A DNA stretch of 38,086 nt from Desulfobulbaceae bacterium. GTDB taxonomy: Bacteria; Desulfobacterota; Desulfobulbia; Desulfobulbales; Desulfobulbaceae. Below the pieces are notes generated by a model, which was not told the origin of the DNA, ran no database searches, and was given only the letters and a program-made list of their open reading frames with translations. Each line of letters begins with the position of its first letter. Position 1 is the first letter of the stretch. Of this stretch, positions 5,887 to 18,861 are shown piece after piece. The stretch spans positions 1 to 38,086 of the forward strand of contig JAFLKR010000106.1 in NCBI GenBank assembly GCA_019163135.1, given 5' to 3'. The position numbers were made by a program, and so were the translations under genes.

Positions 5887-6636
5887 CTACCCCTTGATAG
5901 CCACCAGAATCACCGTGATATTGTCGCGGCCACCCGCTTGATTGGCGGCTTGGACCAGGTCTTCGACCGTTTCATCCACGTAACCGGGTCGGTCCCCGAT
6001 GATCTCCGCAATCCTGGCATCCGACAGCATACTAGTCAGGCCGTCGGTACAAAGCAGCAGCATATCCCCCGCAACCACCGGCCGATACAAGATCGTAGGG
6101 GTGACCGTCGGCTCGGCACCGATTGCCCGTGTGATGATATGGCGTTGCAGCGAATGTTCGGCTTGGCTGACCGTCAGCGCCCCTTTTTGGATCAACTCAT
6201 TGACCAGGGAGTGATCGCCGGTCTCCCTGCTGAGCACGGTGTTGCGCCAATGGTAGACCCGACTGTCGCCCACATGGGCAATCCCGACCGTCGTGCCGCA
6301 GAGTTGCACCATTGCCAAGGTAGTGGCCATGTTCCTGGCCAAGGCGATTTTATGCTGATGGGTGCGGAGATTGACTGTGGCGATTATTTCCTGAAGTGGC
6401 GGGATGCCCATCCTCGATCGTCTGATATACAGGTCCTGCAGATGAGAGAGAGCCGTCTTGCTGGCAATGTCGCCCGCATCCAGACCACCCAGACCGTCGG
6501 CCACAGCAAAGACGCCGACCTCGCCCAGCATAAGCAGGTCATCTTCATTGCACCGACGCACACGTCCGGTATTGGTCATGCCGGCATAGATAATCTGGCA
6601 GCCCAAGAGCCGACAGCTTCCTTGCATGAGGCCCAT
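5887..6636 (-). CDS. PP2C-family Ser/Thr protein phosphatase (Stp1/PrpC-like)
   Basis: Metal-dependent phosphatase expected to reverse phosphorylation by the kinase encoded two genes upstream. Soluble, 249 residues, cytoplasmic. PPM motifs in order: NEDD (30-33), VADGLGG (45-51, metal Asp47), MATTL (103-107), HVGDSR (121-126), ITRAIG (168-173), TDGLT (197-201, Asp198) and GGRDNITV (235-242, Asp238). All metal-binding acids are present, so it should be active. AAGGAGG 9 nt before the ATG fixes the start. It is the last gene of the ten-gene minus-strand cluster, 50 nt after the lipoprotein gene, and ends against the MFS terminator. Kinase and phosphatase in one cluster with three FHA readers imply a reversible phospho-threonine switch. 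Confidence 0.93.
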   Translation of the reverse strand: MGLMQGSCRLLGCQIIYAGMTNTGRVRRCNEDDLLMLGEVGVFAVADGLGGLDAGDIASKTALSHLQDLYIRRSRMGIPPLQEIIATVNLRTHQHKIALARNMATTLAMVQLCGTTVGIAHVGDSRVYHWRNTVLSRETGDHSLVNELIQKGALTVSQAEHSLQRHIITRAIGAEPTVTPTILYRPVVAGDMLLLCTDGLTSMLSDARIAEIIGDRPGYVDETVEDLVQAANQAGGRDNITVILVAIKG

Positions 6637-6686
6637 CTGTCAGTCCCTCCTTTTGGATAAACCGTCAACCATAGAACGCAAACTCT

Positions 6687-7244
6687 TCACTGTACGGTAA
6701 ACGAACGTCGCGAACTGCGGGTTTTTCCTTGAGCGCTAATCTGCTGGGCCACGGTGTATTTACCGGGTTTAGCTGAGCCCGGAATGGCAAAAGTAAGGGT
6801 GTTTTCCCAGGTGCCGTTTTCTTTGACGACGGTTTCATCCTTGAGGACCGTCAACTCTTGGCCGCTGCTGGTAAGTGAGGTTTTTTCCCTGACCTTTAAA
6901 CCCTTTTCAGGTGCGCCCGAAACGACATACTGCAAGGTCAGTTTCACCTGATCGCCGATTGTAACTTTGGTCGGTGCGACCGTGGCATTATTGATGGTAA
7001 GGGTCAACCCGCCAGAGTTGACAGCTGCCGATTGTTTTCGAGTGGGTTTCGCACCGGTTAATTTTCGGGTGGTTTGTTTGATGGACCTGCCCAATTCATC
7101 GAAAAAAGCCCCCACCTTGCTTCGTGGCTCCTCCTGCGTCGCCACATAACCGGCGCCGGCCCCGGCGGTGAAGATCAAAGGGGCGCAACCGGCCAGCAGG
7201 AGCATGAGGGGCATTACCAAGGCAAAGAAAAGTTTTATCGGCAT
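6687..7244 (-). CDS. Small lipoprotein with C-terminal beta-sandwich-like domain
   Basis: No family recognised with certainty. The 185-residue protein starts with a signal peptide ending in the lipobox LLAGC (Cys at about residue 20), so it should be anchored to a membrane by lipidation. A short glycine/alanine stretch and a basic segment (about 50-70) precede a C-terminal region (about 78-185) made of alternating strands, as in immunoglobulin-like or BsuPI-like folds. The segments TLTINNATV, TIGDQVKLTLQY, WENTLTFAIP and GKYTVAQQIS resemble periplasmic ligand or adhesion domains. It begins 18 nt after the kinase stop; the SD is weak, so coupling to kinase translation is likely. A periplasmic partner for the kinase or the exporter is possible but unproven. 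Confidence 0.75.
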   Translation of the reverse strand: MPIKLFFALVMPLMLLLAGCAPLIFTAGAGAGYVATQEEPRSKVGAFFDELGRSIKQTTRKLTGAKPTRKQSAAVNSGGLTLTINNATVAPTKVTIGDQVKLTLQYVVSGAPEKGLKVREKTSLTSSGQELTVLKDETVVKENGTWENTLTFAIPGSAKPGKYTVAQQISAQGKTRSSRRSFTVQ

Positions 7245-7262
7245 CGAATCAGGCAGGCCTTG

Positions 7263-8690
7263 TCAGCGAATTTTACGGGAGTGGGTTTCTATGACCTGCC
7301 ATTCCTGTGGCTCGGATGCGCCCGTTTCGGACCCGGTTGTCTTGGAGTCGGCCTTGTTTTCCTGCCGGAGGGTTTCGACGGTTTGCAAGGCAGAGGGCTT
7401 TTTTTCTGGTTCCCTGCCAACCGGAGATAGGTCTGACATGGGAGCTGCCTTGGCCGGAACTGTGGCCGTTGGGGCATATTCGGAGGGCGACTGGGGAGTG
7501 CCAAGCACTTTCAGCCAATGGGCTCGCAGGAGGTAACCGGCAAACACCAACACCATCACCATCACCAGTACCGCCAAAATATACAGCCATTTCCGTTTGG
7601 ATGGTGGAAGAGATCGGTCCCGGCCAACGGCCGGATTAAGCATGGTGGATTCAAAACTGGCGCTCGCCGCAGCTTCCTCATGCGTGGTCGCCAGCAGGGT
7701 CGCCTGGATAACGGTGGAAGGGCTGGGTAAAGAGGTCAGGCCTGCTTCAAGGGTTTTGAGATCATCGAGGAAGGCTTGGGCATCCTGATAGCGATCCCCT
7801 GGTTTTTTGGCCAGGGCTCTGTGCAGCACCGTGTGGATTCCGGCCGGAAGAGCGGGAGACAGCTTCTGCAGGGCAGGCGGCTGCATGAGGTGTCCGGTGA
7901 AAACCTCGGTCATCGACCCCTTAAAAGGCGGCTCGCCGGTCAGGAGTTCATAAAGGATGATGCCGACCGCATAAAGATCGGTGGCCGGGCAGATGGCGCC
8001 GAAGGTCTGGGGATCGATCCGTTCCGGCGCCATATATATCGGGGTGCCGGGTCCTTGGGTACCCAGTGAGGTCAAACGATGCATGGCCTCCGACTCCGTG
8101 TCAATCAGGGCAATGCCGAAATCGGTGAGTTTGACCAGGTATCGGCCGTCTGCCCTTGGTTGGAGGAGAATATTCGCTGTTTTAATATCGCGATGTACCA
8201 TATCTCGTCCATGGATACAGGACAGCGCTCCCAGGATCTGGCTGATGATGTCCAGGGTCAGCTGCAGCGGATAGCCGGGTGATCGGTAGGTGGCGGCCAG
8301 CCCTCCGGCCAGGGTCTCGCCGACAAAATATTCCATCACCAGATAGAGACGCCCGTTTTCCTCCACCGTGTCGTGGAGGGTGACGATATTGGGATGGACT
8401 CCGATAGCGGCATGCAGCCGGCATTCCAGTTCAATTCGGGCCCGAACCTCTGCATTGCTGCTTAATGCAGGGCGAATCGTTTTGACTGCCACCTGCCGGG
8501 CCAGGCGCTGATCTTCCGCGAGGTAGACGTTGCCCATGCCCCCTTCTCCCAGGGGTTGAATGAGGCGATAACGTCCGGCGATAAGGTCGTTGCAGCCGGT
8601 GAAAATACTGGGTGCCGGACGAAGAATGGTGGTGGTGTCGATGAGTGTTTTCAGTCCGTTCAACGGGTGTCCCGACGTTTCAGGAACCAT
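7263..8690 (-). CDS. Transmembrane Hanks-type Ser/Thr protein kinase
   Basis: Bacterial eukaryotic-like kinase of 475 residues. The kinase domain spans about 40-315: glycine loop GEGGMGNV (49-56), VAVK (Lys70), HRDIKTANIL (catalytic Asp168), DFG (190-192), GTPIYMAPE (216-223) and the RY motif near 300. All catalytic residues are present. A Ser/Thr/Ala-rich juxtamembrane stretch (320-360) leads to one membrane helix (about 368-389) and a 90-residue Pro/Lys-rich tail expected in the periplasm; there are no PASTA repeats. The ATG at 8690 overlaps the end of the FHA-ABC gene by 31 nt, suggesting coupled translation. Likely phosphorylation targets are proteins read by the FHA domains of its neighbours; this is inference from clustering. 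Confidence 0.92.
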   Translation of the reverse strand: MVPETSGHPLNGLKTLIDTTTILRPAPSIFTGCNDLIAGRYRLIQPLGEGGMGNVYLAEDQRLARQVAVKTIRPALSSNAEVRARIELECRLHAAIGVHPNIVTLHDTVEENGRLYLVMEYFVGETLAGGLAATYRSPGYPLQLTLDIISQILGALSCIHGRDMVHRDIKTANILLQPRADGRYLVKLTDFGIALIDTESEAMHRLTSLGTQGPGTPIYMAPERIDPQTFGAICPATDLYAVGIILYELLTGEPPFKGSMTEVFTGHLMQPPALQKLSPALPAGIHTVLHRALAKKPGDRYQDAQAFLDDLKTLEAGLTSLPSPSTVIQATLLATTHEEAAASASFESTMLNPAVGRDRSLPPSKRKWLYILAVLVMVMVLVFAGYLLRAHWLKVLGTPQSPSEYAPTATVPAKAAPMSDLSPVGREPEKKPSALQTVETLRQENKADSKTTGSETGASEPQEWQVIETHSRKIR

Positions 8691-11401
8691 GCAGAGAAAG
8701 AAAGCCAGAGGAAGAATTGGGTGATCAGGAGACAGCCGCCAGTATAATAGACCGATCGGCCGAAGTCAAAACCAATCACCTCCCGGATGAGCCCGGGAAT
8801 CCATCCCACCCCTTCGCCTGTAAACGAATGAAACATCGCGGTACACACCATCGCCAGCCCCGATCGTGCCGGCAGGAGGTCGGCAGCCCACCGGAGGCCG
8901 CTGCTCATCCGGGCATAAAAATCCGGCCCCAGGCCGCCGGAGAGAATTAATTGCGGCAGCACCACAGCTATGGCCAGCAGCACCGAAAACCGGCCCGCGG
9001 TCGGGTCGATGGTGCTCAGGAAAAGGCCTATGGCCACCGAACTCCAGGCAATGGCGACCATGGCCAGCCAGACCGGCATAAAGGCGGTCGGGCGCAGGGC
9101 AGGGTTGCACCAGCAGAGTGCGAGAAAGAGAAGACATTGCAGGGCGGTGATCGCCAGGCAGAAGGGCAGCTTCGAGCCCAAATAGGGGAGGATCGACAAA
9201 TGCGACATCCGTTCGCGCCGATAGATGGATCGCTCCGGCGAAATTTCCAGGCAGGCGATAAAGGTCCCCGAGAACACTGCGGTCATGACGATCATCAGCA
9301 GGACGCTCATCGGCACCGGCAGGTTTGCCACACCCTCAAAGCGCAGGGCGTAGAGCAGGTCGGGGGCAGAACGCGGGTCCAAGATTCCGGCCGGGGAGAG
9401 GAGCACCTTGAGTTGGCTGTCCATGGCGGTCCCCCCCATGACTGCAACTTCCAGGAAAGGCCGTTTTTGGACACGAACCTCCTCGTCGGTGCGCACACCG
9501 TTGATGTGCTGCGACAGACTCACCAGAGCCAGGACGACGGGGATGCAGAGAAAGAGCAATAAGCGTTTGGGTGCTGCACAGCGAATATGTAGATGTCGTT
9601 GCGACAGGATGCGCCAGATGCGGAGCGATCCGATGTCAGGCCAGTCGGCGGAAACCCGTCTGCGACCCTCGGGTTTTGGTTTGACGGGTGGTTCGGTCAG
9701 GGTCTGGTCGGAGCCGTTTTTTTGGTGGATCTCCATCACCCGGGCTAAGGGGGAAAGGCGTGCTTCGATGTTTTTTTGATAGAGTTGGCAATGGCGGTAA
9801 CGGTGGGCATAACGGGCGGCGATCCTTTCCTGTTCGCCAGCGGTACGGTCGGTGGTACCGGCTGCGGGCTTTCCCTCGGCGCCGGTCAGCAGGTCGAAGA
9901 TGCCGGTCGGCCGAATGTGCGGCATGGTATCCTCGCTGAAGAATTTAGTCGCTTCGTTCGGAGTACCAAAAAAAACCAGCTTCCCTTGGGAAAGGATGAC
10001 CACCTTGTCGAGCAGGGACAGGTTATAGAGCACATGGGTGGTGATCACCACGGTGGTGCCGTTGTGGGCCATGCTGCGGAAATGACGCATCAGCCGATCC
10101 TCGGTGCTGGGATCAAGGCCGGAGGTCGGCTCGTCGAGAAAGAGGATGCTGGGGCGGACGATAAGTTCGGCCCCGATGGAAACCCGTTTGCGCTGGCCGC
10201 CGCTCAATTGGTGGATTGGCAGGTGGCGGACTTGCGATAATCCCAGGGTTTCGATGGTGCCGTCGACGATGTTGGTCCGTTGGGCGGGGTCTATATCCGG
10301 GGACAGACGGAGGCTGGCGATGTAGCCGAGGCTCTCCTCGACGCTCAACTCCGGGTGAAGGATGTCATCCTGCGGCACATAGCCGATAGTGTTGCGAAAC
10401 ATCGCATAGGCCGTGTCCAGAGGGATCTCATTATATAAAACTTGCCCCTGGCTCGGCCGGGTAAAGCCGTTAAGGGCGGTGAGCAGGCTGGTCTTGCCGG
10501 CGCCGCTCGGACCGAGGATGCCGATAAATTCGCCGGGTTCAAAAGAAAGGGTGATACCATCCAGGAGCGTTTTAGTCGCGGCCCGGCCGTTGACCGCGGT
10601 CCGGGTCAGGCCGACGCACTCCAGTTTGACCGCCTGGCCGCATTCCCGTTGCTGCACAGTGAGCGCACCATCGTGCTCTAACTGGAATCGGAAATGGGTG
10701 GAGCCGATAACCACGGTGTCGGCGGCCGTCAGGCTGACTTCGCGCACCCTGCGTCCGTTTACCCAAGTACCGTTGAGGCTGTGCTGGTCGACAAGGCGGA
10801 GGGTGTCCTCGTACTGCCGGAGGATAGCGTGCCTCGAACTTACCATCGGCTCAAAGCTCAGGGAAATATCGCTGCCCGGGGCTCGGCCGATCACCCATTG
10901 TTGCTGCGGAGGCAGGGTGATTTGTCGGGGCTCGAGGCTGCTGCGGGTTTGAAAGCGGAGGTGGTTGGCGCTGTCGGAACCGAGGCTGATCAGATCGCCA
11001 TCCTGAAGCGCGATTCGGCCGATTGCCCTCTGGCCATTATGAAAGACGCCGTTAGTGGAGTCGAGGTCTTCGAGCTGGAAGTGCCCCAGGAGATCGATGG
11101 TTATGTGCGCGTGACGACGGGAGACGCAGGCCCCGGTGACGACGATATCGCATTGGCCCCCATCGCGGCCGATGGTGACGCCTTGAGCAGTGATGCGGTA
11201 TTCCCGGTAAGAAAAACCGGCATCCAGGGCAACCAGAAAAGCCGGTGCATCGGGGCAGGGCGGCTGGGTCTCAGAGGCTTTCATGGCGGTTTTTCGGGAG
11301 TCGGGAATGCCTGCCGCCTCCGACCGCATGGGGGACGGTCGGAGACTGCTCAGGAGAGGGTCAAGGTGCCGGTCTTCCCGATCTTGCCGGGAAGATGGCA
11401 T
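8660..11401 (-). CDS. Tandem-FHA ABCG-type ABC transporter (FHA-FHA-ATPase-ABC2 membrane)
   Basis: Single-chain half-transporter of up to 913 residues. FHA1 spans about 55-150 (GRD, SRRH 94-97, STNG near 115), FHA2 about 160-240 (IGR 171-173, SSRH 188-191, SLNGTWVNG near 208-216). The ATPase has Walker A GPSGAGKT (297-304), Q-loop VPQDD, signature LSGGQRKR (399-406), Walker B ILFLDEP (419-425) and H-loop TTH. The C-terminal 300 residues hold about six membrane helices of the ABC-2/White type. FHA domains bind phosphothreonine, so activity or location is probably set by the neighbouring kinase. The ATG at 11401 lies 3 nt after the preceding stop but has a weak SD; ATG codons at residues 25 and 40 are alternatives, and FHA1 begins after both. 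The cargo is unknown. Confidence 0.9.
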   Translation of the reverse strand: MPSSRQDREDRHLDPLLSSLRPSPMRSEAAGIPDSRKTAMKASETQPPCPDAPAFLVALDAGFSYREYRITAQGVTIGRDGGQCDIVVTGACVSRRHAHITIDLLGHFQLEDLDSTNGVFHNGQRAIGRIALQDGDLISLGSDSANHLRFQTRSSLEPRQITLPPQQQWVIGRAPGSDISLSFEPMVSSRHAILRQYEDTLRLVDQHSLNGTWVNGRRVREVSLTAADTVVIGSTHFRFQLEHDGALTVQQRECGQAVKLECVGLTRTAVNGRAATKTLLDGITLSFEPGEFIGILGPSGAGKTSLLTALNGFTRPSQGQVLYNEIPLDTAYAMFRNTIGYVPQDDILHPELSVEESLGYIASLRLSPDIDPAQRTNIVDGTIETLGLSQVRHLPIHQLSGGQRKRVSIGAELIVRPSILFLDEPTSGLDPSTEDRLMRHFRSMAHNGTTVVITTHVLYNLSLLDKVVILSQGKLVFFGTPNEATKFFSEDTMPHIRPTGIFDLLTGAEGKPAAGTTDRTAGEQERIAARYAHRYRHCQLYQKNIEARLSPLARVMEIHQKNGSDQTLTEPPVKPKPEGRRRVSADWPDIGSLRIWRILSQRHLHIRCAAPKRLLLFLCIPVVLALVSLSQHINGVRTDEEVRVQKRPFLEVAVMGGTAMDSQLKVLLSPAGILDPRSAPDLLYALRFEGVANLPVPMSVLLMIVMTAVFSGTFIACLEISPERSIYRRERMSHLSILPYLGSKLPFCLAITALQCLLFLALCWCNPALRPTAFMPVWLAMVAIAWSSVAIGLFLSTIDPTAGRFSVLLAIAVVLPQLILSGGLGPDFYARMSSGLRWAADLLPARSGLAMVCTAMFHSFTGEGVGWIPGLIREVIGFDFGRSVYYTGGCLLITQFFLWLSFSAWFLKRRDTR
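11318..11344 (-). repeat. Hairpin at the FHA-ABC translation start region
   Basis: Perfect 9-bp inverted repeat CTCCGACCG / CGGTCGGAG with a 9-nt loop. On the minus strand the loop contains the second candidate ATG (11327-11329) of the FHA-ABC gene. It lies between the first ATG (11401) and the third (11284). Confidence 0.5.
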
Positions 11402-11404
11402 GGG

Positions 11405-12577
11405 TCAGTTCTTCCGCGCTGCTGAGGCACCGGCCACCGGGGTAAAGGGGTTGCGCAGATACAACTCCTCATCTTTCAAGGCGGGAATGGCCTTGTCGAG
11501 TTTCTGCTGGGCTTCAAGGATGCGAGGAAAGGTCGGTGGTTCGATGGTCTCGAACATCGAGGTGTCATAATACATGATACCGCTGCCCGTGGGATATTCC
11601 ACCCCGATTTTGACATTATGCATAGCCCCGTCCACCGGAATCGGTGACCGGAAGGTCAGCACATAATCGCTTTGCATGGTGTTCTGGATATCCTCGACAC
11701 TGCGGGTGATGGTGTCATAGGCGGTGCCGATGGCATAGTATTTACCAAAGGAGTTTTTGGAAAGTGCCTGGAGATCGCGCTGATCCTTGCCGTCCTTGCC
11801 GGTGAAGCAGAGAGAATAAATCGGTATCGGAATTTTCAGGCTGGAGATCCGGGTCATCAGGTCGGACCTGTTGACGGCACTGTCTTCGTCTTTGCCGCTG
11901 CCCAGAACGACAATCGAGGTGGAGACGATGTAGTCGACTTCGCTGGACGAACTGCCCCCGGCCCCGACTCCGCCGGCCAGTTGCATGGCCCCGGCTAACC
12001 CGTCATAGATTCGGGTCCGTTCGCCCCGCGGCTGCAGATCGGCCAGCCGTCGGCCCAGGATGCCCGGTTCACGGTCAAAATTGGAAAGCACGGTGTAGCC
12101 CTCGCTGCTGTTATCCAACGCGATCAGGGCCACCTGATCCTGCGGTCGTTTGGCATCGATGAAGCGGGCCGCTGCCCGGATCATGGCTTCAAAATCGGGG
12201 CCCTTCATGTTCTTGTTGGTATCCAGGACCAGAATGGAGCGGATCGCTTCTTCCCGGTTTTGGATGGATTGGATGAGGTACTGTCTCTTTTTGGGATCGT
12301 ACGCCCGCCCCTCGACCATCACCCCGATGTTGAGCACATTAAGGTTGACCAGCGGATTCATATCCTGATCAAAGGTGCGCATATAGACATGCACGAAAGG
12401 GTAGAGGGCCGATTCCACTTTGAATATCTTCAGGCCGTAGCCCTGCTGGCCGGTGGCGCCGGTCCCGGCATGGGAAATTTTAGCCGCCAGTCCGATTGCC
12501 AGTACCAGTCCCAGGATGATCAATTCGGCAGCCAGGGGCTGCAGGGCCGTCAGGCACCGTTTCAACAACCATTTCAT
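11405..12577 (-). CDS. Membrane-anchored von Willebrand A-like protein with degenerate metal site
   Basis: 390 residues from the ATG at 12577, chosen because AAGGAG lies 7 nt upstream; an in-frame start at 12613 would overlap the previous gene. One N-terminal membrane segment or signal (about 14-36). From about 113 to 280 the fold is vWA-like: IRSILVLDTNKN at the position of the MIDAS strand, QVALIALDN, TRIYDGLAGAM and a later IVVLGSGKDED. The classical DxSxS is replaced by DTNKN (119-123), so metal binding may be lost or altered. The C-terminal part (about 300-360) looks like a beta domain. vWA proteins commonly act as assembly or adhesion partners; here it sits between the exporter-like genes and the FHA-ABC gene. 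Confidence 0.8.
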   Translation of the reverse strand: MKWLLKRCLTALQPLAAELIILGLVLAIGLAAKISHAGTGATGQQGYGLKIFKVESALYPFVHVYMRTFDQDMNPLVNLNVLNIGVMVEGRAYDPKKRQYLIQSIQNREEAIRSILVLDTNKNMKGPDFEAMIRAAARFIDAKRPQDQVALIALDNSSEGYTVLSNFDREPGILGRRLADLQPRGERTRIYDGLAGAMQLAGGVGAGGSSSSEVDYIVSTSIVVLGSGKDEDSAVNRSDLMTRISSLKIPIPIYSLCFTGKDGKDQRDLQALSKNSFGKYYAIGTAYDTITRSVEDIQNTMQSDYVLTFRSPIPVDGAMHNVKIGVEYPTGSGIMYYDTSMFETIEPPTFPRILEAQQKLDKAIPALKDEELYLRNPFTPVAGASAARKN

Positions 12578-12609
12578 ACCTATCTCCTTCAAAAGAACCC
12601 TGTCGGGTT

Positions 12610-12933
12610 TCATGGCATCTGGGCAAAGGGTTTGCCCAGGTTATTGATCGTCTTGCCGCCCGGCCCTTTGACCGAACTGTAGGCGATCTTGGTTACTCCG
12701 GTGGAGGTGTCAAGGACAAAGGCCCCGTAGCCGCCGCCCGATTCCCAGGCGCTGATCTGAAATCGGCCGGTATTGGAGAGCGGGATCGCTCTGCTTTCGT
12801 TCGGGTCCAGCACCGCCACCGGCAAGGAGGGGCCATCGTTGATAACCGCGCCCATCAGCAAACCGATGAGCAGGGGCGCCAAGCCGCCCAGCAGTAACCC
12901 GGCCCAAAAATTATTCGCCCCTATTTCTCTCAT
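12610..12933 (-). CDS. Small membrane-anchored protein of unknown function
   Basis: 107 residues, no family recognised. One strongly hydrophobic N-terminal helix (about residues 9-31, NFWAGLLLGGLAPLLIGLLMG) is followed by a short polar domain with a WESGGGYGAFVLDTSTG segment that looks like a small beta structure. The start is well supported: GGAGG 9 nt before the ATG, and the ATG lies 23 nt inside the 3' end of the CsgG-like gene, implying translational coupling. The tight link suggests a subunit or chaperone of the exporter. Nothing in it resembles CsgE or CsgF closely enough to claim homology. Confidence 0.7.
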   Translation of the reverse strand: MREIGANNFWAGLLLGGLAPLLIGLLMGAVINDGPSLPVAVLDPNESRAIPLSNTGRFQISAWESGGGYGAFVLDTSTGVTKIAYSSVKGPGGKTINNLGKPFAQMP

Positions 12934-14392
12934 TGATCAAAGCCTCCGCTGAAATCTTATTGCCGAAAGCCGCTTGACTGCGCAACAGTTGGGCCACGCC
13001 CTCCTGGGCATCCTGCTGTTTGGCCGGTGCGGCCGTCTCTTTGCCGGTCGGAGGTTTGTCCGCATTGGTCCAGGCCACGGCTACAGGGCTGGCGCTGACC
13101 TTTTCCGCCGGTGCGGTTTTCTGTACCGGTTTGCTCGCCTTTTGCTGATTAACCACTTGGGTCGGGGCGGACTTCTCTGCTGTTTTAGCAATGGCCTTGG
13201 CCGGCGCCTTTTTCACCGGGGCTGCCGCTACGGCTTCCACCGGGCTGGAACTTTCCAGGGCCTTGGCCAGCATCTCCCGCCGACGGGACACCTGCTCCAT
13301 CTGGTCGCCCAGCGAACTCCACAGCGCCACATATAACTCCGGATCGTTGACGCCCTGGGCCGGTTTGTAATCAGGTTTAAAGCTCGACAGCGCTGCCTGG
13401 GTTTTGCTGTCGAGACGTCCGGTGATGGGCACGTCGTACCCCTTGAGGTAGAGACAGGTCTGGATCTCACCGATTCGGTCGCTCGGGCTCAGGTTTCTGA
13501 AATCCTGTCGGATCCGTTCAAGCACCAACGGATCGGGTTTCATCTCCGGAATCAGCTTCCAGTAGGGCAGGTAGAGGTATTTGCCGACAATCTGGAGCAC
13601 ACTGGTCTGGACCAGCAGACGGATAGCTGCATGTCGTCCCTGGACCTTCTTGACCGTGCCTTTGAGGCCGAAACTCGGGCCAAAGATGGTGAAGCCGAGT
13701 TCTTTTTCCGCCACGGCCTTATAAACATTGATCGAATTGACCGTCTGCATCCGGGCCACGCCGGACATGGTCTTGAAATCGAGCAGGTTGAAATCCAGGG
13801 TGATCCGGGCGAGGCTGTCCTTGTTTTCCTGGTTATAATCGACCGAAATGGTGTCGCCCGGAACCCAGGATTGATTGACGTTGAAGGGTTTGGTCGTGAC
13901 CCCGAAATCGGTGCTGCTGCCATGGGTTTCGAGGCCGCGATCAAATTCGGTGATCCCGCCGGAGAGCACGATGTCCGGGATGTATTTCCCCTGAAAATTA
14001 GAATAACCGGTGACCATCTGGTTGTTGATGAACACCGGGCTGTAGGGGATATAGACGACATTGCCGCCGATAGCGTTGAGCGAACTCTTGGTCATCTCGG
14101 TTATATCCCGTGGGATCTCGCCGAAGCCGAATTGGGAAAGCCCGGTGAAATCGGTGATGTCTTTGCCCATGATCATTGCCCGCTTGCCGTAAATCTGGGT
14201 CATTCGACCCAGATCGGCGAGGGGTTGGTCAAAGCTCGTTTCCTTGATCTCCGGCATATCCGAAGGCATATCGACGTCCACCTGGCGGGGGTCGATCTTG
14301 GCGCAGGCGCCCAGGCTGAAGACCACCAGCGGGATCAGCAGCCAAGAGGCTGGGTTTATTCGGATTCGGAGTTTTGGTATGGCAAAAAGCAT
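12911..14392 (-). CDS. CsgG/HfaB-like outer-membrane lipoprotein with peptidoglycan-binding-like module
   Basis: 493 residues. The signal peptide ends in lipobox LGAC (Cys30). Residues about 55-275 resemble CsgG-type secretion pores: a start helix region, IPYSPVF strand, then VLSGGITEFDRG, followed by ARITLDFNLLDFKT, where CsgG has its own paired strands, and a late helix ending ...LVQTSVLQIVGKYL. CsgG and the Caulobacter holdfast-anchor protein HfaB form ring-shaped outer-membrane channels exporting curlin-type subunits. Unlike CsgG (about 277 residues) it continues with a PG_binding_1-like repeat (306-343: IGEIQTCLYLKGYDV...GRLDSKTQAAL) and an Ala/Lys/Pro-rich tail (382-470), which could reach the cell wall. 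AGGA 6 nt before the ATG supports the start. CsgG assignment is by eye, moderate confidence. Confidence 0.78.
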   Translation of the reverse strand: MLFAIPKLRIRINPASWLLIPLVVFSLGACAKIDPRQVDVDMPSDMPEIKETSFDQPLADLGRMTQIYGKRAMIMGKDITDFTGLSQFGFGEIPRDITEMTKSSLNAIGGNVVYIPYSPVFINNQMVTGYSNFQGKYIPDIVLSGGITEFDRGLETHGSSTDFGVTTKPFNVNQSWVPGDTISVDYNQENKDSLARITLDFNLLDFKTMSGVARMQTVNSINVYKAVAEKELGFTIFGPSFGLKGTVKKVQGRHAAIRLLVQTSVLQIVGKYLYLPYWKLIPEMKPDPLVLERIRQDFRNLSPSDRIGEIQTCLYLKGYDVPITGRLDSKTQAALSSFKPDYKPAQGVNDPELYVALWSSLGDQMEQVSRRREMLAKALESSSPVEAVAAAPVKKAPAKAIAKTAEKSAPTQVVNQQKASKPVQKTAPAEKVSASPVAVAWTNADKPPTGKETAAPAKQQDAQEGVAQLLRSQAAFGNKISAEALINERNRGE

Positions 14393-14413
14393 GCTCGTTC
14401 CTTGACGTCAGTT

Positions 14414-14737
14414 TTATTTGGAAATGACCGTTTTATCGCCCTTGGAATCATCGATGATGATGATATCTCCATTGATTTCCGCACCCGAGTCTAGGATGAC
14501 GCTGTTGAGGGCCCCGCCGTCGGCCAGAATGACGCCACCGGAACCCGAGGCGGCTTTGCCCCTGGCGCGTTGGGCGAGGTACGAGAAATTTTTGTTCGAA
14601 CCGCTGATCTCGCTGTACGTCCCGATGGCGTCGTCGGCCTCGATCCCGTCATTGAGATCGTCGGCCCGGCATGGGGAAGCCAGGCAAACCTGCCCCAGGA
14701 GCAGCAAAAACATCAAGGTTGCGGTGAGCGCTCGCAT
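14414..14737 (-). CDS. Small secreted protein of the curlin-like cluster
   Basis: 107 residues with a clear Sec signal peptide (cleavage near residue 25, after SPCRA). The mature part is acidic at first (DDLNDGIEADDAIG) and ends with a short-period strand pattern rich in G, S, I and D (GGALNSVILDSGAEINGDIIIID), compatible with a small beta-solenoid or fibre minor subunit. No family recognised. GGGAG 9 nt upstream supports the start. It lies 21 nt from each neighbour, between the five-repeat secreted protein and the CsgG-like exporter, the position held by small accessory subunits in curli and holdfast-anchor loci. A nucleator or secretion-accessory role is a guess. Confidence 0.75.
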   Translation of the reverse strand: MRALTATLMFLLLLGQVCLASPCRADDLNDGIEADDAIGTYSEISGSNKNFSYLAQRARGKAASGSGGVILADGGALNSVILDSGAEINGDIIIIDDSKGDKTVISK

Positions 14738-14758
14738 CGTGCTTTTCTCCCTTATGGA

Positions 14759-15352
14759 TTAGTTCGCCACCACGGAATCGACGGCAACGTTGGAGTTGTT
14801 GCCCGACATCGAAACCGACACATTACCCAGATCGGACTTGGTCATCACCTCGCCGCGCTGGGCTTCGTTCAGTTGAACCGAACCGATATTAAGGCGGTTG
14901 TTGTTGCCGTCAATCACCCCGTTGAGTTGCCCGCCGGTCACGGAAGAGACCACTTTTCCGGCCGAAGCGTTCTGCAGCATCACCGAGCCGATGTTAGAAG
15001 TGTTGTTGTTCCCCTGAACCGTATTGCCGATGGAATCGACCTTGACGGTATTGGACACTGACCCGGCTTTGGAATCCTGGAGGTGGACCGAGGCGCTGTT
15101 CACCGTGTTGTTGTTGCCGGTGGCCGAGGCGGAAACCGTGCCGGTGGCCCGGACCCGATTGGTGACCTCACGGGCGTTGCTGCCGTTCATGTTAATGGAG
15201 GCGGCATTGGCGACGTTGTTGTTCCCCTTGGCCCGGGCGCTGTATTCACCGCCCTGTACCCGGTTTTCCGCCTTGAGGCCGAGCAGATCGGCCTGGCTGA
15301 TCGCCGGGGTGGCCAGGAGGGCGCCGATGGTAATTAATTGTAATATTTTCAT
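14759..15352 (-). CDS. Secreted five-repeat curlin-like protein
   Basis: 197 residues from the ATG at 15352 (GGAG 7 nt upstream; earlier in-frame starts would precede the signal peptide). Signal peptide residues 1-21 (cleavage after SQA). The whole mature protein is a tandem array: GNN cores at residues 43, 79, 114, 149 and 184, i.e. spacing 36, 35, 35, 35. Each unit reads about V-x(10)-GNNNxxNxxSVxLxxxxAGxV, with Asn, Gly, Ser and Val dominating and no Cys. Curlin repeats (CsgA, about 23 residues, S-x5-QxGxGNxA) share the Gly-Asn core, but the period and spacing differ, so this is curlin-like rather than a curlin. It probably forms a beta-solenoid or amyloid fibre exported by the CsgG-like protein next to it. 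Confidence 0.85.
   Translation of the reverse strand: MKILQLITIGALLATPAISQADLLGLKAENRVQGGEYSARAKGNNNVANAASINMNGSNAREVTNRVRATGTVSASATGNNNTVNSASVHLQDSKAGSVSNTVKVDSIGNTVQGNNNTSNIGSVMLQNASAGKVVSSVTGGQLNGVIDGNNNRLNIGSVQLNEAQRGEVMTKSDLGNVSVSMSGNNSNVAVDSVVAN
14762..15265 (-). repeat. Five tandem ~35-residue GNNN repeats (coding)
   Basis: Five coding repeats of about 105 nt inside the secreted protein gene. Period is constant at 35 codons (first interval 36). Repeats are conserved at the protein core but diverged at DNA level, so they are old and under protein-level selection rather than recent expansions. Confidence 0.8.
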
Positions 15353-15395
15353 TTTGTTGCTCCGTAGGCAGGTTGACGCATGCAGTTCTGGAGAC

Positions 15396-15429
15396 CCCGT
15401 GTTGCGACCCATTCCGGCAGCAACACGGG
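15396..15429 (-). repeat. Intercistronic hairpin between the two repeat-protein genes
   Basis: Perfect 10-bp inverted repeat CCCGTGTTGC (15396-15405) / GCAACACGGG (15420-15429) with a 14-nt loop, 10 nt after the stop of the first gene. There is no T-run on the minus-strand exit side, so it is more likely an mRNA-stability or processing element, or a partial terminator, than a full terminator. Confidence 0.6.
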
Positions 15430-15439
15430 AAAAGGGGCT

Positions 15440-16225
15440 TTAGTTAACGGCGATGGAGGCGGCGTTGGCCTGGTTGTTGTTGCCGCCCTCAACCGAGGAG
15501 CTGATGTTGCCGGTGTTTTCCACCTCGTTGATCACGCGTCCCTTGACCGCTATGCCGCCGCCCATCGAGATGGAGGCTGCATTGGCACTGTTATTGTTGC
15601 CGTTCTTGATCATGCTGCTGATATTACCGCTGGTGTTAACCTTGTTGACGACCGAGTCAGCGGTCTGCGCGTTGCCGCCGCCGGAGATCGAGGCGGCGTT
15701 GGCCAGGTTGTTGTTGCCGCCGGTGATGGTGCTGGAGATGTTGCCGGCCCGCTTGATCTCGTTGCGAATTTCAGCCTTGGAGCTGGTCGGGCTGGTGCTC
15801 GGCTCCTGGGTGGCGGCTGCGGTTGTCCCGGTGGTGCTTTCGGCAGCGGTGTCGGTGGCTGCCGTGGTGTCAGTGGCATCGGCTCCGGTATCGGTGGCTG
15901 CCGTGGTGGTATCGGTGGTGGTGGCGGGCGTGGTGGTGGCGGGCGTAGTGCTGCTGCCGACTCCGGCGGTCGCGTTGGTCGTTTGGGTGGTTGGGGCGGT
16001 CGCGGTTGCCGTCGAAGATGCGGTCTGGGTCGCGGTGGTATTGACGGTGATCGTGTTGGTATTGGTGATCGGTTGCGCGACAAAGGTGTTGTGGTGAATG
16101 GCTGGGCCTTTGCGTTTATTGTGATTGAACGATCCGCTCAGGGTGGAATCGCCGGAATCGGCGTGCGCTATGCCGGCGGACAGGCCAAAGATAAGGGCAG
16201 TTGCCAGAAATGTCTTTTTGAGCAT
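15440..16225 (-). CDS. Secreted three-repeat curlin-like protein with Thr/Ala linker
   Basis: 261 residues. Sec signal peptide (1-22, cleavage after AHA), a short basic segment (36-40), a low-complexity Thr/Ala/Ser/Asp linker (about 56-150) and a C-terminal module of three units with GNNN cores at 170, 209 and 248, spacing exactly 39. The consensus is NxV-x4-GNISSxIxxGNNNxANAASISxGG, closer to curlin-type fibre repeats than the sister protein. The chain ends inside the third repeat (ANAASIAVN). The Thr-rich linker could be a spacer or a glycosylation or phosphorylation target. GGAGG 6 nt before the ATG fixes the start. It is first in the cluster, directly downstream of the -24/-12 promoter, so probably the most highly expressed product. 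Confidence 0.85.
   Translation of the reverse strand: MLKKTFLATALIFGLSAGIAHADSGDSTLSGSFNHNKRKGPAIHHNTFVAQPITNTNTITVNTTATQTASSTATATAPTTQTTNATAGVGSSTTPATTTPATTTDTTTAATDTGADATDTTAATDTAAESTTGTTAAATQEPSTSPTSSKAEIRNEIKRAGNISSTITGGNNNLANAASISGGGNAQTADSVVNKVNTSGNISSMIKNGNNNSANAASISMGGGIAVKGRVINEVENTGNISSSVEGGNNNQANAASIAVN
15443..15769 (-). repeat. Three tandem 39-residue GNNN repeats (coding)
   Basis: Three coding repeats of 117 nt (last one truncated) with identical spacing of the GNNN...ANAASI core. This core is nearly invariant in all three and is also present in the first repeat of the sister gene, pointing to common ancestry of the two proteins. Confidence 0.8.
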
Positions 16226-16290
16226 GGGAAACCTCCATATGGGTGTTTGTTATTGGTTGCGGTGAAATACTGCTTGCTGGCTACCTTAAA

Positions 16291-16305
16291 GCAAAGGCAA
16301 TGCCA
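16291..16305 (-). promoter_or_regulatory. Sigma-54 (-24/-12) promoter of the curlin-like cluster
   Basis: On the minus strand the sequence reads CTGGCATTGCCTTTGCT. TGGCA and TTGC are at the exact spacing of the RpoN consensus (TGGCAC-N5-TTGC), with GG and GC 10 bp apart. The predicted start near 16279 gives a 54-nt leader to the ATG at 16225. A sigma-54-type activator is encoded immediately upstream. Confidence 0.8.
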
Positions 16306-16433
16306 GAAATTATTTTCAGGGTTAGTGCCTGGAAATTAGCCGTTAAAATAAAGGGTTGCCAGGATGGGTGGAAAAACGGGGCGCCACAAGCCGGGCAAGT
16401 CCGCTCGGGATACCGGTGCGGGCAATAGCGGAA

Positions 16434-16450
16434 TGTCCGAAAATCGAACA
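16434..16450. promoter_or_regulatory. Candidate activator-binding inverted repeat (UAS)
   Basis: TGTCCG-AAAAT-CGAACA, 5/6 symmetric half-sites. Its centre is about 160 bp upstream of the predicted sigma-54 start, the usual distance for an enhancer-binding protein. The half-site TGTCCG recurs twice, in inverted orientation, in the long hairpin at 16512-16562. Confidence 0.4.
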
Positions 16451-16511
16451 GCGAGAAAAGCGCTAAAGATATAACGCCTCGAAATCATGTATTTTAGACG
16501 AAAAGAGCGGA

Positions 16512-16562
16512 TTGTAGGATAAGCGGACAGCTGCTTAAATTGGCTGTCCGTTTATCCTACAA
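16512..16562 (-). terminator. 19-bp stem hairpin, probable terminator of the activator gene
   Basis: TTGTAGGATAAGCGGACAG (16512-16530) pairs with CTGTCCGTTTATCCTACAA (16544-16562) with a single G-T wobble and a 13-nt loop. It lies 21 nt after the stop of the activator gene; on the exit side a CTCTTTT follows. It could also contribute activator half-sites to the cluster promoter. Confidence 0.6.
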
Positions 16563-16583
16563 AAAAACGGAAGATGTGCGTAA

Positions 16584-18464
16584 TTAGGCTGAAATGTTGT
16601 ATTTTTTCATTTTCTGATACAAGGTGGAACGGGCGATTCCCACCAGGCCGGCGGCGTCGGAGATATTGCCGTCGGCGCGATCCAGGGCCGCCTTGATATG
16701 GTTTTTCTCCATCTCTTCCAGGCTGGGGAAAACCTCGATCCCAGCCGGTTTCATGACGCCGAATTCCTCGGAAAGGGCGAGGATCTCGCGCTCGGTGATC
16801 AATCGCCCCTGGGATTGGACCGCGAGCCGCAAGAGCACATTGCGCAACTGGCGGATATTGCCCGGCCACTGGTACTGGAGCAGCAACTGCATGCCGTTAT
16901 CCGCGATTCGAGGCTCCTTCCAGTGATATTCGGCGGAGAATTTCCCTAGGAAATAGCGGGCCAATGGCTCGATATCCTCCACCCGCTCCCGTAGCGGCGG
17001 CACTTTGAGGGTGAAGCAGGAGAGGCGTTGGAAGAGGTCGTCGCGGAAGGTCTGCGCGCGGATCATGTCCGCCACGTCCCGGTTGGTGGCGGTCACTACA
17101 CGCACATCGAGTTTCTTAACCCTGGTGTCGCCCAGACGGCTGATTTCGCCGTTTTCCAAAAAGCGGAGCAACTTGGGCTGCAGGGTCAGCGACATATCGG
17201 CCACCTCATCCAGAAACAGGGTGCCGCCTTCAGCCAGTTCCAACTTGCCTGATTTGTCGATGGCCTCATGAAAGGCGCCTTTGCGCGAGCCGAAGAGTTC
17301 ACTTTCAAAAAGACCTTCGGGAATGGCGGCACAGTTCAGGGGAATATAGGCGCCTTTGCGTTGGGAAAAATTATGGAGGGCGGCGGCGACATGTTCCTTG
17401 CCGCTGCCGGCCTCGCCGGAAATAAACACCGGAACGTTGATCGGGGCGATGGTGCGGATATCTTCATAGAGTTTGACCATTTTTTCGCTGCGGATGATGG
17501 TTTCGTCCTTGCTGGCCAAGCGTGTTTTTAGCGCTTCCCGCTCCTGGTGCATTCGTTTGCGGCCGATCAGGTTGTCGAGAAGCACGGCTCCGTGCAGCGC
17601 CAGGATTATCAAAGCGGCTTGGGCGCTCGCCTTGAAAAAATGCTGATCGCGATGGTCGAGGTAGAGACAGCCCATCGCCTTACCTTCCCGCAACAGGGGG
17701 GCACAGAGCACCGAGCGTTCGCGGCCGTCCTTGTCCCTGCGGCTCTTTTCCCCTGCGGCTTCGCCTCCGGCAGTGCCGGTGCAGCCCTGATCCATCACCC
17801 GTTGCACGATATCCTGGCGGACTTCCCGGCTCTCTTTCTGCGGGTCAAAGTGATGGGTGGCCGCGTAGATGAGTTCATTCTTGGGGTTCAGCAGGGCCAG
17901 GAAGCCCCGTTCTGCCTGCAGCAGCGCCGTCGCATCGGTCAGCAGCCGTTCGCCCAGCACCTGCTCTTCATCGATTTGATGCAGTTCGCGGAGAAAATCG
18001 GCGAGCGAGGCCATCTTCGTGCCCTCATCGGAGCTGGAAAGGGCCACCGGGAGGAACGGTGGTTCCATGGGGGTCGGTTCGAGGCTGAAAAGGATGGTCG
18101 CCGAGTCGATCGGCGAGGGCAGTGGGGTGGTTGGGGCGTTTGGGTGGGCAAAGACCCGTGAAGGTCGGCGGTCGTCGACTTCATTAATGAAGGTGAAGAA
18201 ATAATCAACGATGCGAAAGGTCATGCCGTGGGCAAGGGGGACAGCGTTGATCTGCTTGTGCTCCATCCACACCGCATTGGTGCTTTCGTGATCAAAGAGT
18301 ACGAAACTGCCGTTTTCCTGTCGGTTGATGGAGGCATGTCGTCGGGAGACTTGCGGCGAGGCCAGGACGATATCGTTATCATCATCCCGCCCGATAGTGA
18401 CCGTGGTGGTGAATTCGATCACCCGATAATCCTGGGCGTCCTGGCATATAATGAGTCTGGGCAT
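16584..18464 (-). CDS. FHA-GAF-AAA+ sigma-54-type transcription activator with GAFHEA loop
   Basis: 626 residues from the ATG at 18464; a TTG three codons earlier is also possible, and neither has a good SD. Domains: FHA (about 5-95; GRDDDN, SRRHAS), linker, GAF (about 155-300), AAA+ (about 325-560) and a Fis-type HTH (about 585-625, NISDAAGLVGIARSTLYQ). Walker A is GEAGSGKE (350-357), Walker B GGTLFLDE (413-420) and the arginine-finger segment RDDLFQRL is present. The loop that contacts sigma-54 reads GAFHEA (396-401; DNA 17262-17279) instead of GAFTGA. The FHA input ties it to threonine phosphorylation, the GAF domain to a small ligand. It is transcribed toward the curlin-like cluster and is its probable activator. 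Confidence 0.93.
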   Translation of the reverse strand: MPRLIICQDAQDYRVIEFTTTVTIGRDDDNDIVLASPQVSRRHASINRQENGSFVLFDHESTNAVWMEHKQINAVPLAHGMTFRIVDYFFTFINEVDDRRPSRVFAHPNAPTTPLPSPIDSATILFSLEPTPMEPPFLPVALSSSDEGTKMASLADFLRELHQIDEEQVLGERLLTDATALLQAERGFLALLNPKNELIYAATHHFDPQKESREVRQDIVQRVMDQGCTGTAGGEAAGEKSRRDKDGRERSVLCAPLLREGKAMGCLYLDHRDQHFFKASAQAALIILALHGAVLLDNLIGRKRMHQEREALKTRLASKDETIIRSEKMVKLYEDIRTIAPINVPVFISGEAGSGKEHVAAALHNFSQRKGAYIPLNCAAIPEGLFESELFGSRKGAFHEAIDKSGKLELAEGGTLFLDEVADMSLTLQPKLLRFLENGEISRLGDTRVKKLDVRVVTATNRDVADMIRAQTFRDDLFQRLSCFTLKVPPLRERVEDIEPLARYFLGKFSAEYHWKEPRIADNGMQLLLQYQWPGNIRQLRNVLLRLAVQSQGRLITEREILALSEEFGVMKPAGIEVFPSLEEMEKNHIKAALDRADGNISDAAGLVGIARSTLYQKMKKYNISA

Positions 18465-18861
18465 GGCAATCAATAGGGTTGGTAGTTTTTGCGCTCAGCA
18501 TGGTGCCCTTGCCGAAAAGGCAGACCGTAACGTAAGGTCTGGATGCCAACACAAAGTGACATCGGCAAGGTCAACATAGCATCCTCCCTGATTTTAGGCG
18601 ATGGTTTCCGGGGAGCAACCGGGAACGGGATGGCTTCCATGGGGTTCAATAGATGCCCTTGCTACGGATAAAAAACAAAGAGGTGCCTTGACTGTGAACC
18701 AGGTTTTGTAATATAATTAAAAACAGTTATACGATGCTTTTTCGGTCTGTTCGACAAGGGGTCGCGGCAGTGGATGAACGGGGAGCGGTTGAGCCACCGG
18801 CTCGCTTTTGCTCCTGCATCACGGAAAAGTCTTTCCCTATCCTTTTTCAAGGAGGCCTGTT
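18465..18861. other. Divergent intergenic region activator / Cache-like gene
   Basis: 397 nt. Near the activator: nested inverted repeats CCTTGCCGA (18507-18515) / TCGGCAAGG (18562-18570) enclosing CAGACC / GGTCTG (about 18521-18541), able to form a long cruciform and a plausible operator. Further right: a sigma-70 promoter (18688-18717) and a structured leader with nested stems GGAGC/GCTCC and GAGCC/GGCTC (18782-18814). No RNA family recognised. Confidence 0.6.
18688..18717 (+). promoter_or_regulatory. Sigma-70 promoter of the Cache-like gene
   Basis: TTGACT (18688-18693), 18-nt spacer, TATAAT (18712-18717): 5/6 and 6/6 matches. Predicted start near 18724, leaving a leader of about 138 nt before the GTG at 18862. 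Confidence 0.7.

Follow-up and report, generated by a model that had tools for sequence, protein, structure and literature searches.

A conserved Desulfobulbaceae locus joining a remote CsgG relative, secreted repeat proteins and Ser/Thr-phosphorylation genes: a possible surface-fibre export operon with a sigma-54 promoter element

What might be exported, and under which control, by a gene cluster in which secreted Asn-rich repeat proteins and a CsgG-like lipoprotein stand beside a Ser/Thr kinase, a PP2C phosphatase and an FHA-bearing exporter? The question is raised by a locus of Desulfobulbaceae bacterium (assembly GCA_019163135.1, contig JAFLKR010000106.1), of which the first 38,086 nucleotides were analysed and are called here the window; it consists of ten same-strand genes at 5887-16225 and the gene of an FHA-GAF-AAA+ activator at 16584-18464 (g1 to g11; all positions are those of the window, and all features lie on its minus strand). 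An initial annotation had proposed a curlin- or holdfast-like export locus wired to Ser/Thr phosphorylation and sigma-54. The locus is real and conserved, it is undescribed in the open-access literature searched, and it is of the curli or holdfast kind combined with phospho-regulation, from which its function can be proposed; that it may be an export operon for a surface fibre (amyloid) under two-tier Ser/Thr-phosphorylation control is a reading we regard as evenly poised. At the level of sequence, the gene set, the synteny, the remote CsgG kinship and the conservation of promoter and enhancers are shown, and to these is added a predicted solenoid fold for one of the repeat proteins.

The arrangement and the domains are those claimed initially. 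Neighbouring genes from g1 to g10 overlap by 4-31 nucleotides or are separated by 3-87, and g10 and g11 are 358 nucleotides apart. Above the Pfam cut-offs, g1-g10 return PP2C, protein kinase, FHA (two stretches) together with ABC_tran and ABC2_membrane, and vWA, and g11 returns FHA, Sigma54_activat and the Fis helix-turn-helix; the GAF domain of g11 (E 8.7e-6) and the peptidoglycan-binding domain of g7 (PF01471, E 0.0017) remain below the cut-off.

Since the genes are conserved together in relatives, the opposite of which would have refuted the initial annotation, their association is not due to chance. Fifteen family loci carrying the cluster were compared for gene order (G-numbers denote genomes, G000 being the own genome, and L-numbers loci of relatives); all eleven genes occur in the same order in six of them (the window, G011, G022, G009, G007 and G065), and seven others are cut by contig ends and show no contradiction (G003, G019, G015, G017, G066, G068 and G070), the family loci of G062 and G063 being outside this comparison. 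In most of the family loci seen, the FHA, kinase and PP2C genes adjoin the CsgG-like gene, as the initial annotation had it for the window. Among the loci of close relatives, five out of six belong to Desulfobulbus and the sixth is 90% identical; the window is accordingly assigned to Desulfobulbus. The g7 gene is found in 17 of 55 relatives (own genome included) and in 39 of the 197 class genomes with a completeness of 85% or more, and is patchy even within the genus (9/23 genomes), while the vWA gene g5 is found in 16 of 242 class genomes, from four genera, all 16 of which also carry g7. In other families of the order, where 5-19 kb around g7 were inspected, the repeat proteins, g8 and g6 are retained in varying sets, which reveals a core (repeat proteins, g8, g7 and g6) that occurs without the kinase module and was not part of the initial annotation. 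Beside this core, G109 carries genes for a 245-residue exported protein, a DUF2807 head-GIN protein, a trypsin-PDZ protease, and OEP, HlyD and ABC proteins (L104:10932-19001); the 245-residue protein recurs, as judged by eye, in L107, L035, L036 and L034.

The assignment on which the export function depends most is that of g7 (12911-14392), announced as a CsgG/HfaB-like lipoprotein. It carries a lipobox with a nearly invariant Cys30 and a C-terminal peptidoglycan-binding-like domain, a tail that had not been noted before. Comparison by hhalign of g7 with 15 CsgG-family proteins of the class gives a probability of 82 (E 1e-5), which rises to 91 (E 1.1e-6 over 175 columns) when 31 g7 relatives are set against the CsgG profile and is 79.8 (E 1.4e-5) in the opposite direction; the reversed-profile controls give probabilities of 0.1 and 0.2. 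As a positive control, the CsgG alignment recovers CsgG structures from the PDB at 6.7e-47, so the search works and the kinship of g7 is a remote one. The alignment covers both hairpin regions forming the CsgG barrel. When five distant relatives of g7 were scanned with PF03783, two gave matches, at E 0.0016 and 0.037, neither reaching the cut-off of the model. Thus, g7 is a remote CsgG relative lying outside the CsgG family as modelled: the CsgG likeness claimed initially stands, as a remote kinship, by profile-profile comparison, but family membership does not, and the lack of CsgG homology that was to count against the claim is what single-model searches give, not what profile-profile comparison gives. 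Proteins matching PF03783 anywhere in the genome are absent from the full-cluster carriers G000, G007, G009, G011 and G022, and G065 has two; among genomes with truncated or reduced clusters they occur in G017, G061 and G066 and are absent from G003, G015, G019 and G026. In a more distant locus, some 6 kb separate a distant relative of g7 from the gene of a 921-residue protein (L105:3091-5856) that matches PF03783 in three stretches and LpoB/FlgT-like models besides. Two further genes of the core flank g7 and have relatives adjoining it in other families of the order, namely g6 (12610-12933), for a small protein with an N-terminal hydrophobic anchor, and g8 (14414-14737), for a small secreted protein outside known families. 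Neither matches CsgE or CsgF in Pfam at E 1, a search that very diverged forms may escape.

The candidate substrates are the products of g9 (14759-15352, counted from the ATG that precedes the signal peptide; the open reading frame at its longest begins at 15412) and g10 (15440-16225), and their description as two periodic secreted GNNN-repeat proteins is borne out. Both begin with Sec-type signal sequences; four GNNN units spaced by 36, 35 and 35 residues were found in g9, and in g10 a Thr/Ala-rich stretch is followed by three 39-residue repeats (spacing 39 and 39). At lag 35 the autocorrelation of g9 is 0.277, where 500 shuffles reach 0.271 at most; at lag 39 that of g10 is 0.276, where the maximum of 500 shuffles is 0.218. 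Structure prediction for g9 is confident (predicted local distance difference test, pLDDT, 85.4; predicted template-modelling score, pTM, 0.79; 129 of 197 residues scoring at least 90) and gives a regular beta-solenoid whose repeats span some 35 residues each. With VIA-align 2, which re-examined Foldseek's own candidates after low-confidence residues had been trimmed from the model, the first row is the Escherichia coli CsgA fibril 8enq (Z 10.2, root-mean-square deviation 8.8, 111 residues), followed by unrelated solenoids at Z 7.4 and less. These comparisons of a predicted model allow the term amyloid-like, and no more. In order-level relatives, very large repeat proteins (about 900-1508 residues) are encoded near g7 or g8 homologues (L104:3218-7744, L036:11183-14701, L108:3482-6244).

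The sigma-54 promoter posited initially has proved to be conserved, together with enhancer-like sites that had escaped the initial annotation. A -24/-12 element before g10, at 16290-16306, is accompanied, 144 nucleotides upstream, by a TGT-N11-ACA palindrome (16434-16450), and the combination of an element scoring 19 or more with such a palindrome at -132 to -148 is kept in all 15 loci; the element starts 72-83 nucleotides before g10 in the seven loci measured. Elements scoring 20 or more occur at 0.045 per kb per strand. A second palindrome (16513-16529, at -223) has counterparts at -222 to -227 in 10 of the 15 loci (8/10 and 2/5 in the two locus sets), with one at -210 in L107, and a third (16545-16561, at -255) at -253 to -256 in five of ten; the contig of L030 ends before the positions of the second and third. 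The same promoter-enhancer layout is found in another family (L107), next to the gene of an activator that shares 65% identity with g11 across 332 residues. When whole loci were scanned on both strands, exactly one composite of element and palindrome (-125 to -150) was present in each of seven activator loci re-scanned, and none in the 14 g7 loci devoid of g11, 13 of which hold one to five single elements scoring 19 or more. A composite pattern designed from these sites matched once each in 12 of 242 genomes, all of them cluster carriers, with no match in the reversed control; the pattern is strict, and missed at least G009, G003 and G017, with deviating sites, and the order-level G194. Since the pattern matches once in each of these 12 genomes, the activator seems, from its putative sites, to serve one operon. 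A wider regulon was also sought: the loose palindrome (one mismatch) occurs 101 times forward and 99 times reverse in the own genome, and 77 and 93 times in the reversed control, so that single sites mean little. The inverted repeat at 16513-16561, a conceivable terminator, is formed by the two outer palindromes and is tentatively read as enhancers. The own genome encodes RpoN, and the adjacency and co-occurrence of the palindromes with g11 suggest that g11 binds them.

The activator gene g11 (16584-18464, from the ATG at 18464; a TTG lies at 18473) encodes an FHA-GAF-AAA+-Fis protein. The PF00158 AAA+ domain and the Fis helix-turn-helix expected of a sigma-54 enhancer-binding protein are present and the Thr-bearing GAFTGA loop is absent: the motif reads GAFHEA (at about residues 396-405, counted from the TTG) and follows GA[FY]H[END]A, with His for Thr, in 12 out of 12 orthologues. 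The own genome has 39 other PF00158 matches, of which 30 were examined; the 29 that could be parsed all have Thr (14 GAFTGA and 15 other variants), and one remained unparsed. Among the GAFTGA variants listed for Desulfovibrio in the accessible text of PMC4641369, none has His at this position. Beside so conserved a promoter, the altered loop may still be functional, or it may indicate that g11 acts as a repressor or as a partner of another protein. In the variable linker between the FHA and GAF domains, Thr126 (in ATILFSLE) is kept in all nine covering sequences of the 12 aligned, and might constitute a phospho-switch. Neither the altered loop nor this linker Thr had been noticed initially.

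The genes g1 to g5 supply the remaining parts of the proposed control. The g3 gene (7263-8690) encodes a Hanks-type Ser/Thr kinase (PF00069, 4.8e-45) with HRD, DFG and APE motifs and one C-terminal hydrophobic, presumably transmembrane, segment; g1 (5887-6636) a PP2C-type Ser/Thr phosphatase (PF13672, 2.8e-10; Stp1-like model NF033484, 4.1e-62, below its cut-off); and g4 (8660-11401) a tandem-FHA exporter of the ABCG type, in which two FHA domains (PF00498, 1e-33) are fused to a nucleotide-binding domain (PF00005), with Walker A and LSGGQ signature aligned, and to an ABC2 membrane domain (PF01061), an Rv1747-type architecture with the kinase gene adjacent. The kinase, FHA and ABC motifs are retained in the orthologues aligned. 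There are four kinase-family matches in the own genome, so that g3 need not be the sole kinase. A conserved FHA-docking Thr at the kinase N-terminus was sought and discarded, the TL[IVA] start being shared by six Desulfobulbus kinases aligned and lacking in five from the genera numbered g5, g8 and g32 (genus numbers, distinct from the genes g5 and g8). In G066, the g4 gene is divided into FHA and ABC parts as two overlapping frames (L099:3668-6381), by a true split or an assembly error. Gene g5 (11405-12613) encodes an exported vWA-domain protein (PF13519, 3.2e-8), and g2 (6687-7244) a lipoprotein with an LAGC lipobox and possibly an Ig-like C-terminal half (BatD and Ig-like models sub-threshold), conserved beside cluster genes in relatives.

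From these parts a working model can be drawn. The products of g8, g9 and g10 would leave the cytoplasm via Sec, and the g7 lipoprotein would be tied to peptidoglycan by its C-terminal domain and would oligomerise as an outer-membrane pore through which the repeat proteins might pass unfolded; outside, these would fold to Asn-rich beta-solenoids and stack, giving a coat or an anchor of amyloid-like nature. Thr motifs would be phosphorylated by the membrane kinase g3, and their docking on the two FHA domains might gate the exporter g4, as proposed for Rv1747-PknF; g4 would export a further envelope component, glycan or lipid, for the fibre to hold, and the PP2C protein g1 would reset the phosphorylation. 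Each of these steps, like the cargo of g4, is conjectural. At the level of transcription, g11 would sense the same kinase state via its FHA domain, perhaps through its own Thr126, and another signal via GAF, would bind the TGT-N11-ACA sites, and would fire the sigma-54 promoter of this one operon. A Thr that switches the protein's own FHA domain has precedents in GarA and OdhI. In its full form, i.e., phosphorylation-gated amyloid secretion in which the kinase/PP2C pair, via FHA, sets both exporter activity and operon transcription, a single-target activator lineage with a His loop works at a sigma-54 promoter of canonical type whose enhancers stand at fixed distances, and the linker Thr switches the FHA domain of the same protein, this model is tentative, and we would sooner expect part of it to fail than the whole to hold.

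Several observations weigh against a phospho-regulated amyloid export operon. No match to CsgG was found for g7 in Pfam (PF03783), in NCBIfam or in PDB sequence searches (phmmer, hmmsearch), PF03783 fails to match three of the five distant g7 relatives, and AlphaFold gave for g7 (7-row alignment) an unusable model (pLDDT 37.9), leaving the pore fold unseen. Regarding the repeat proteins, the curlin identity given to them initially is not upheld: the curlin Pfam models match none of the seven members of either the g9 or the g10 alignment, the QxGxxN motif is absent from both, and PDB profile searches with each gave nothing meaningful. Foldseek found no match for g9 with an E of 0.001 or lower, and FapC 9u4u, which heads its rows, is weak (E 9.4e-3, probability 0.07, TM score 0.10); with the untrimmed model no VIA-align row reaches Z 8, the deviation from CsgA is large, and the curlin 8c50 comes only in 30th place (Z 5.8). 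The Sec-type signals of g9 and g10 mean that the ABC exporter g4 is not needed for them. The vWA metal site of g5 is altered in Desulfobulbus (DTNKx or DTDKK, where genera g8 and g32 have DTSKT), which gives the impression of a loss of metal binding. Synteny has its exceptions too, since loci of genus g5 lack gene g1 (G061) or both g1 and g2 (G026), their positions being occupied by frames on the opposite strand (L030, L098), and another genome of the family, G029, has a distant g7 (L037, identity 28-29%) on an 8.9-kb contig from which the other cluster genes are absent; this distant g7 carries peptidoglycan-binding-like and DUF4384 domains. Near the order-level g7 relatives, kinase, PP2C and vWA genes were not found within the 5-19 kb examined, and for this reason the kinase module looks, from the gene neighbourhoods, like a later addition or one lost elsewhere; one ABC fragment in L104 resembles g4 (30% over 208 residues). 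Finally, g11 lacks the GAFTGA Thr, and according to the accessible text of PMC3162934, sigma-54 activation is in most cases lost when the central Phe or Thr is changed. Overall, the phospho-regulated amyloid or fibre role put forward initially keeps its supporting parts (the confident beta-solenoid prediction for g9, the remote CsgG kinship, the adjoining FHA, kinase and PP2C genes, the sigma-54 promoter with its conserved enhancers, and the synteny) and loses its curlin component, its function being proposed from these parts.

These points can also be arranged differently. The g7-g10 products may form an outer-membrane anchor like HfaABD, with the FHA-ABCG exporter bringing a glycan or glycolipid and the repeat proteins serving as anchors, not as long fibres; the presence of g4 in the same operon and the low repeat number of g9 and g10 suit this proposal, as does HfaB, which resembles CsgG and is needed by HfaA and HfaD to reach the surface (PMC6707917, in the text accessible). 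Nevertheless, Pfam scans detected no glycosyltransferase among the eleven genes, the order-level repeat proteins of up to 1508 residues fit fibres better, and a holdfast-type anchor is on the whole not very probable. It is likewise doubtful that the locus consists of two modules sharing only a promoter, a secretion core (g6-g10) and an envelope exporter (g1-g4) uncoupled from it in function. Other families, in which some core genes stand free of the kinase module, would allow this, as would the likeness of g3-g4 to Rv1747-PknF; gene order is, however, constant across four genera, g5 is confined to g7 carriers, and one promoter with an FHA-bearing activator seems to serve both modules.

Another possibility concerns g7 alone, which may be a periplasmic scaffold of CsgG-like fold that links outer membrane and peptidoglycan and forms no pore, the repeat proteins leaving by another way. 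CsgG-like folds occur also in LpoB- and FlgT-type envelope proteins, the L105 protein matches PF03783, LpoB and FlgT models together, and the tail of g7 would fit a scaffold; but the alignment spans both regions that we take to be barrel hairpins, the Pfam scan of g1-g10 found no other outer-membrane pore family, and we consider the scaffold rather improbable. Unlikely, too, is that g11 acts as a repressor, or as partner of a canonical activator. The replacement of GAFTGA by GAFHEA speaks for it, homologues with a changed motif being mostly inactive and some of them repressors in what is accessible of PMC3162934; the coincidence of the promoter-enhancer composite with g11 in the loci scanned is set against it, although this pattern would be compatible with repression as well, the binding of g11 being putative. 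The preferred reading remains a fibre-export operon controlled by phosphorylation at exporter and promoter.

Several described systems share features with the cluster. With curli it shares secreted Asn-rich periodic subunits, a remote-CsgG lipoprotein, a small secreted extra protein and the place of the CsgA fibril as first VIA-align row for g9; it differs in the missing PF03783 match of g7, in the lack of CsgE/CsgF model matches and of QxGxxN repeats (the minimal curlin repeat being QxGx2N in the accessible text of PMC3521004), in repeats of 35-39 residues, and in the added peptidoglycan-binding-like tail, kinase, phosphatase, FHA exporter and sigma-54 control. The Caulobacter holdfast anchor HfaABD offers a CsgG-like protein with surface partners, whereas here regulatory and transport genes are present as well. 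The likeness to the Fap amyloid (FapB/FapC) lies in the FapC cryo-EM structure heading the Foldseek rows for g9, but at a probability of 0.07, and no Fap-like families were matched in the cluster with Pfam or NCBIfam. Rv1747-PknF of Mycobacterium tuberculosis, in the part of the literature accessible, couples an FHA-bearing ABC exporter with an adjacent Ser/Thr kinase; here such a pair occurs in a Gram-negative, in company with PP2C, vWA and a secretion core. The threonine-phosphorylation control of type VI secretion by PpkA, PppA and Fha uses kinase, PP2C, FHA and vWA parts such as those of the cluster, yet no type VI secretion families, and none of the core genes, were found among the 20 window proteins scanned with Pfam. 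The Myxococcus FHA-domain sigma-54 activators have the FHA-AAA+-Fis architecture of g11, from which the latter differs by its GAF domain and by the His at the Thr position of GAFTGA. Among the titles and opening lines of abstracts listed from the open-access PMC literature, no paper joining CsgG with FHA, PP2C or kinase control was found.

The presence of a His-variant activator beside a strictly conserved promoter raises the question of whether the GAFTGA Thr is truly required for sigma-54 activation, and since some carriers are culture-collection strains (Desulfobulbus elongatus DSM 2908 and D. alkaliphilus DSM 24258), the system can be tested. The bacterial surface amyloids known so far are under other kinds of control; if the present reading is true, the locus would, in sediment bacteria of the sulfur cycle, place such amyloids under Ser/Thr phosphorylation of the eukaryote type.

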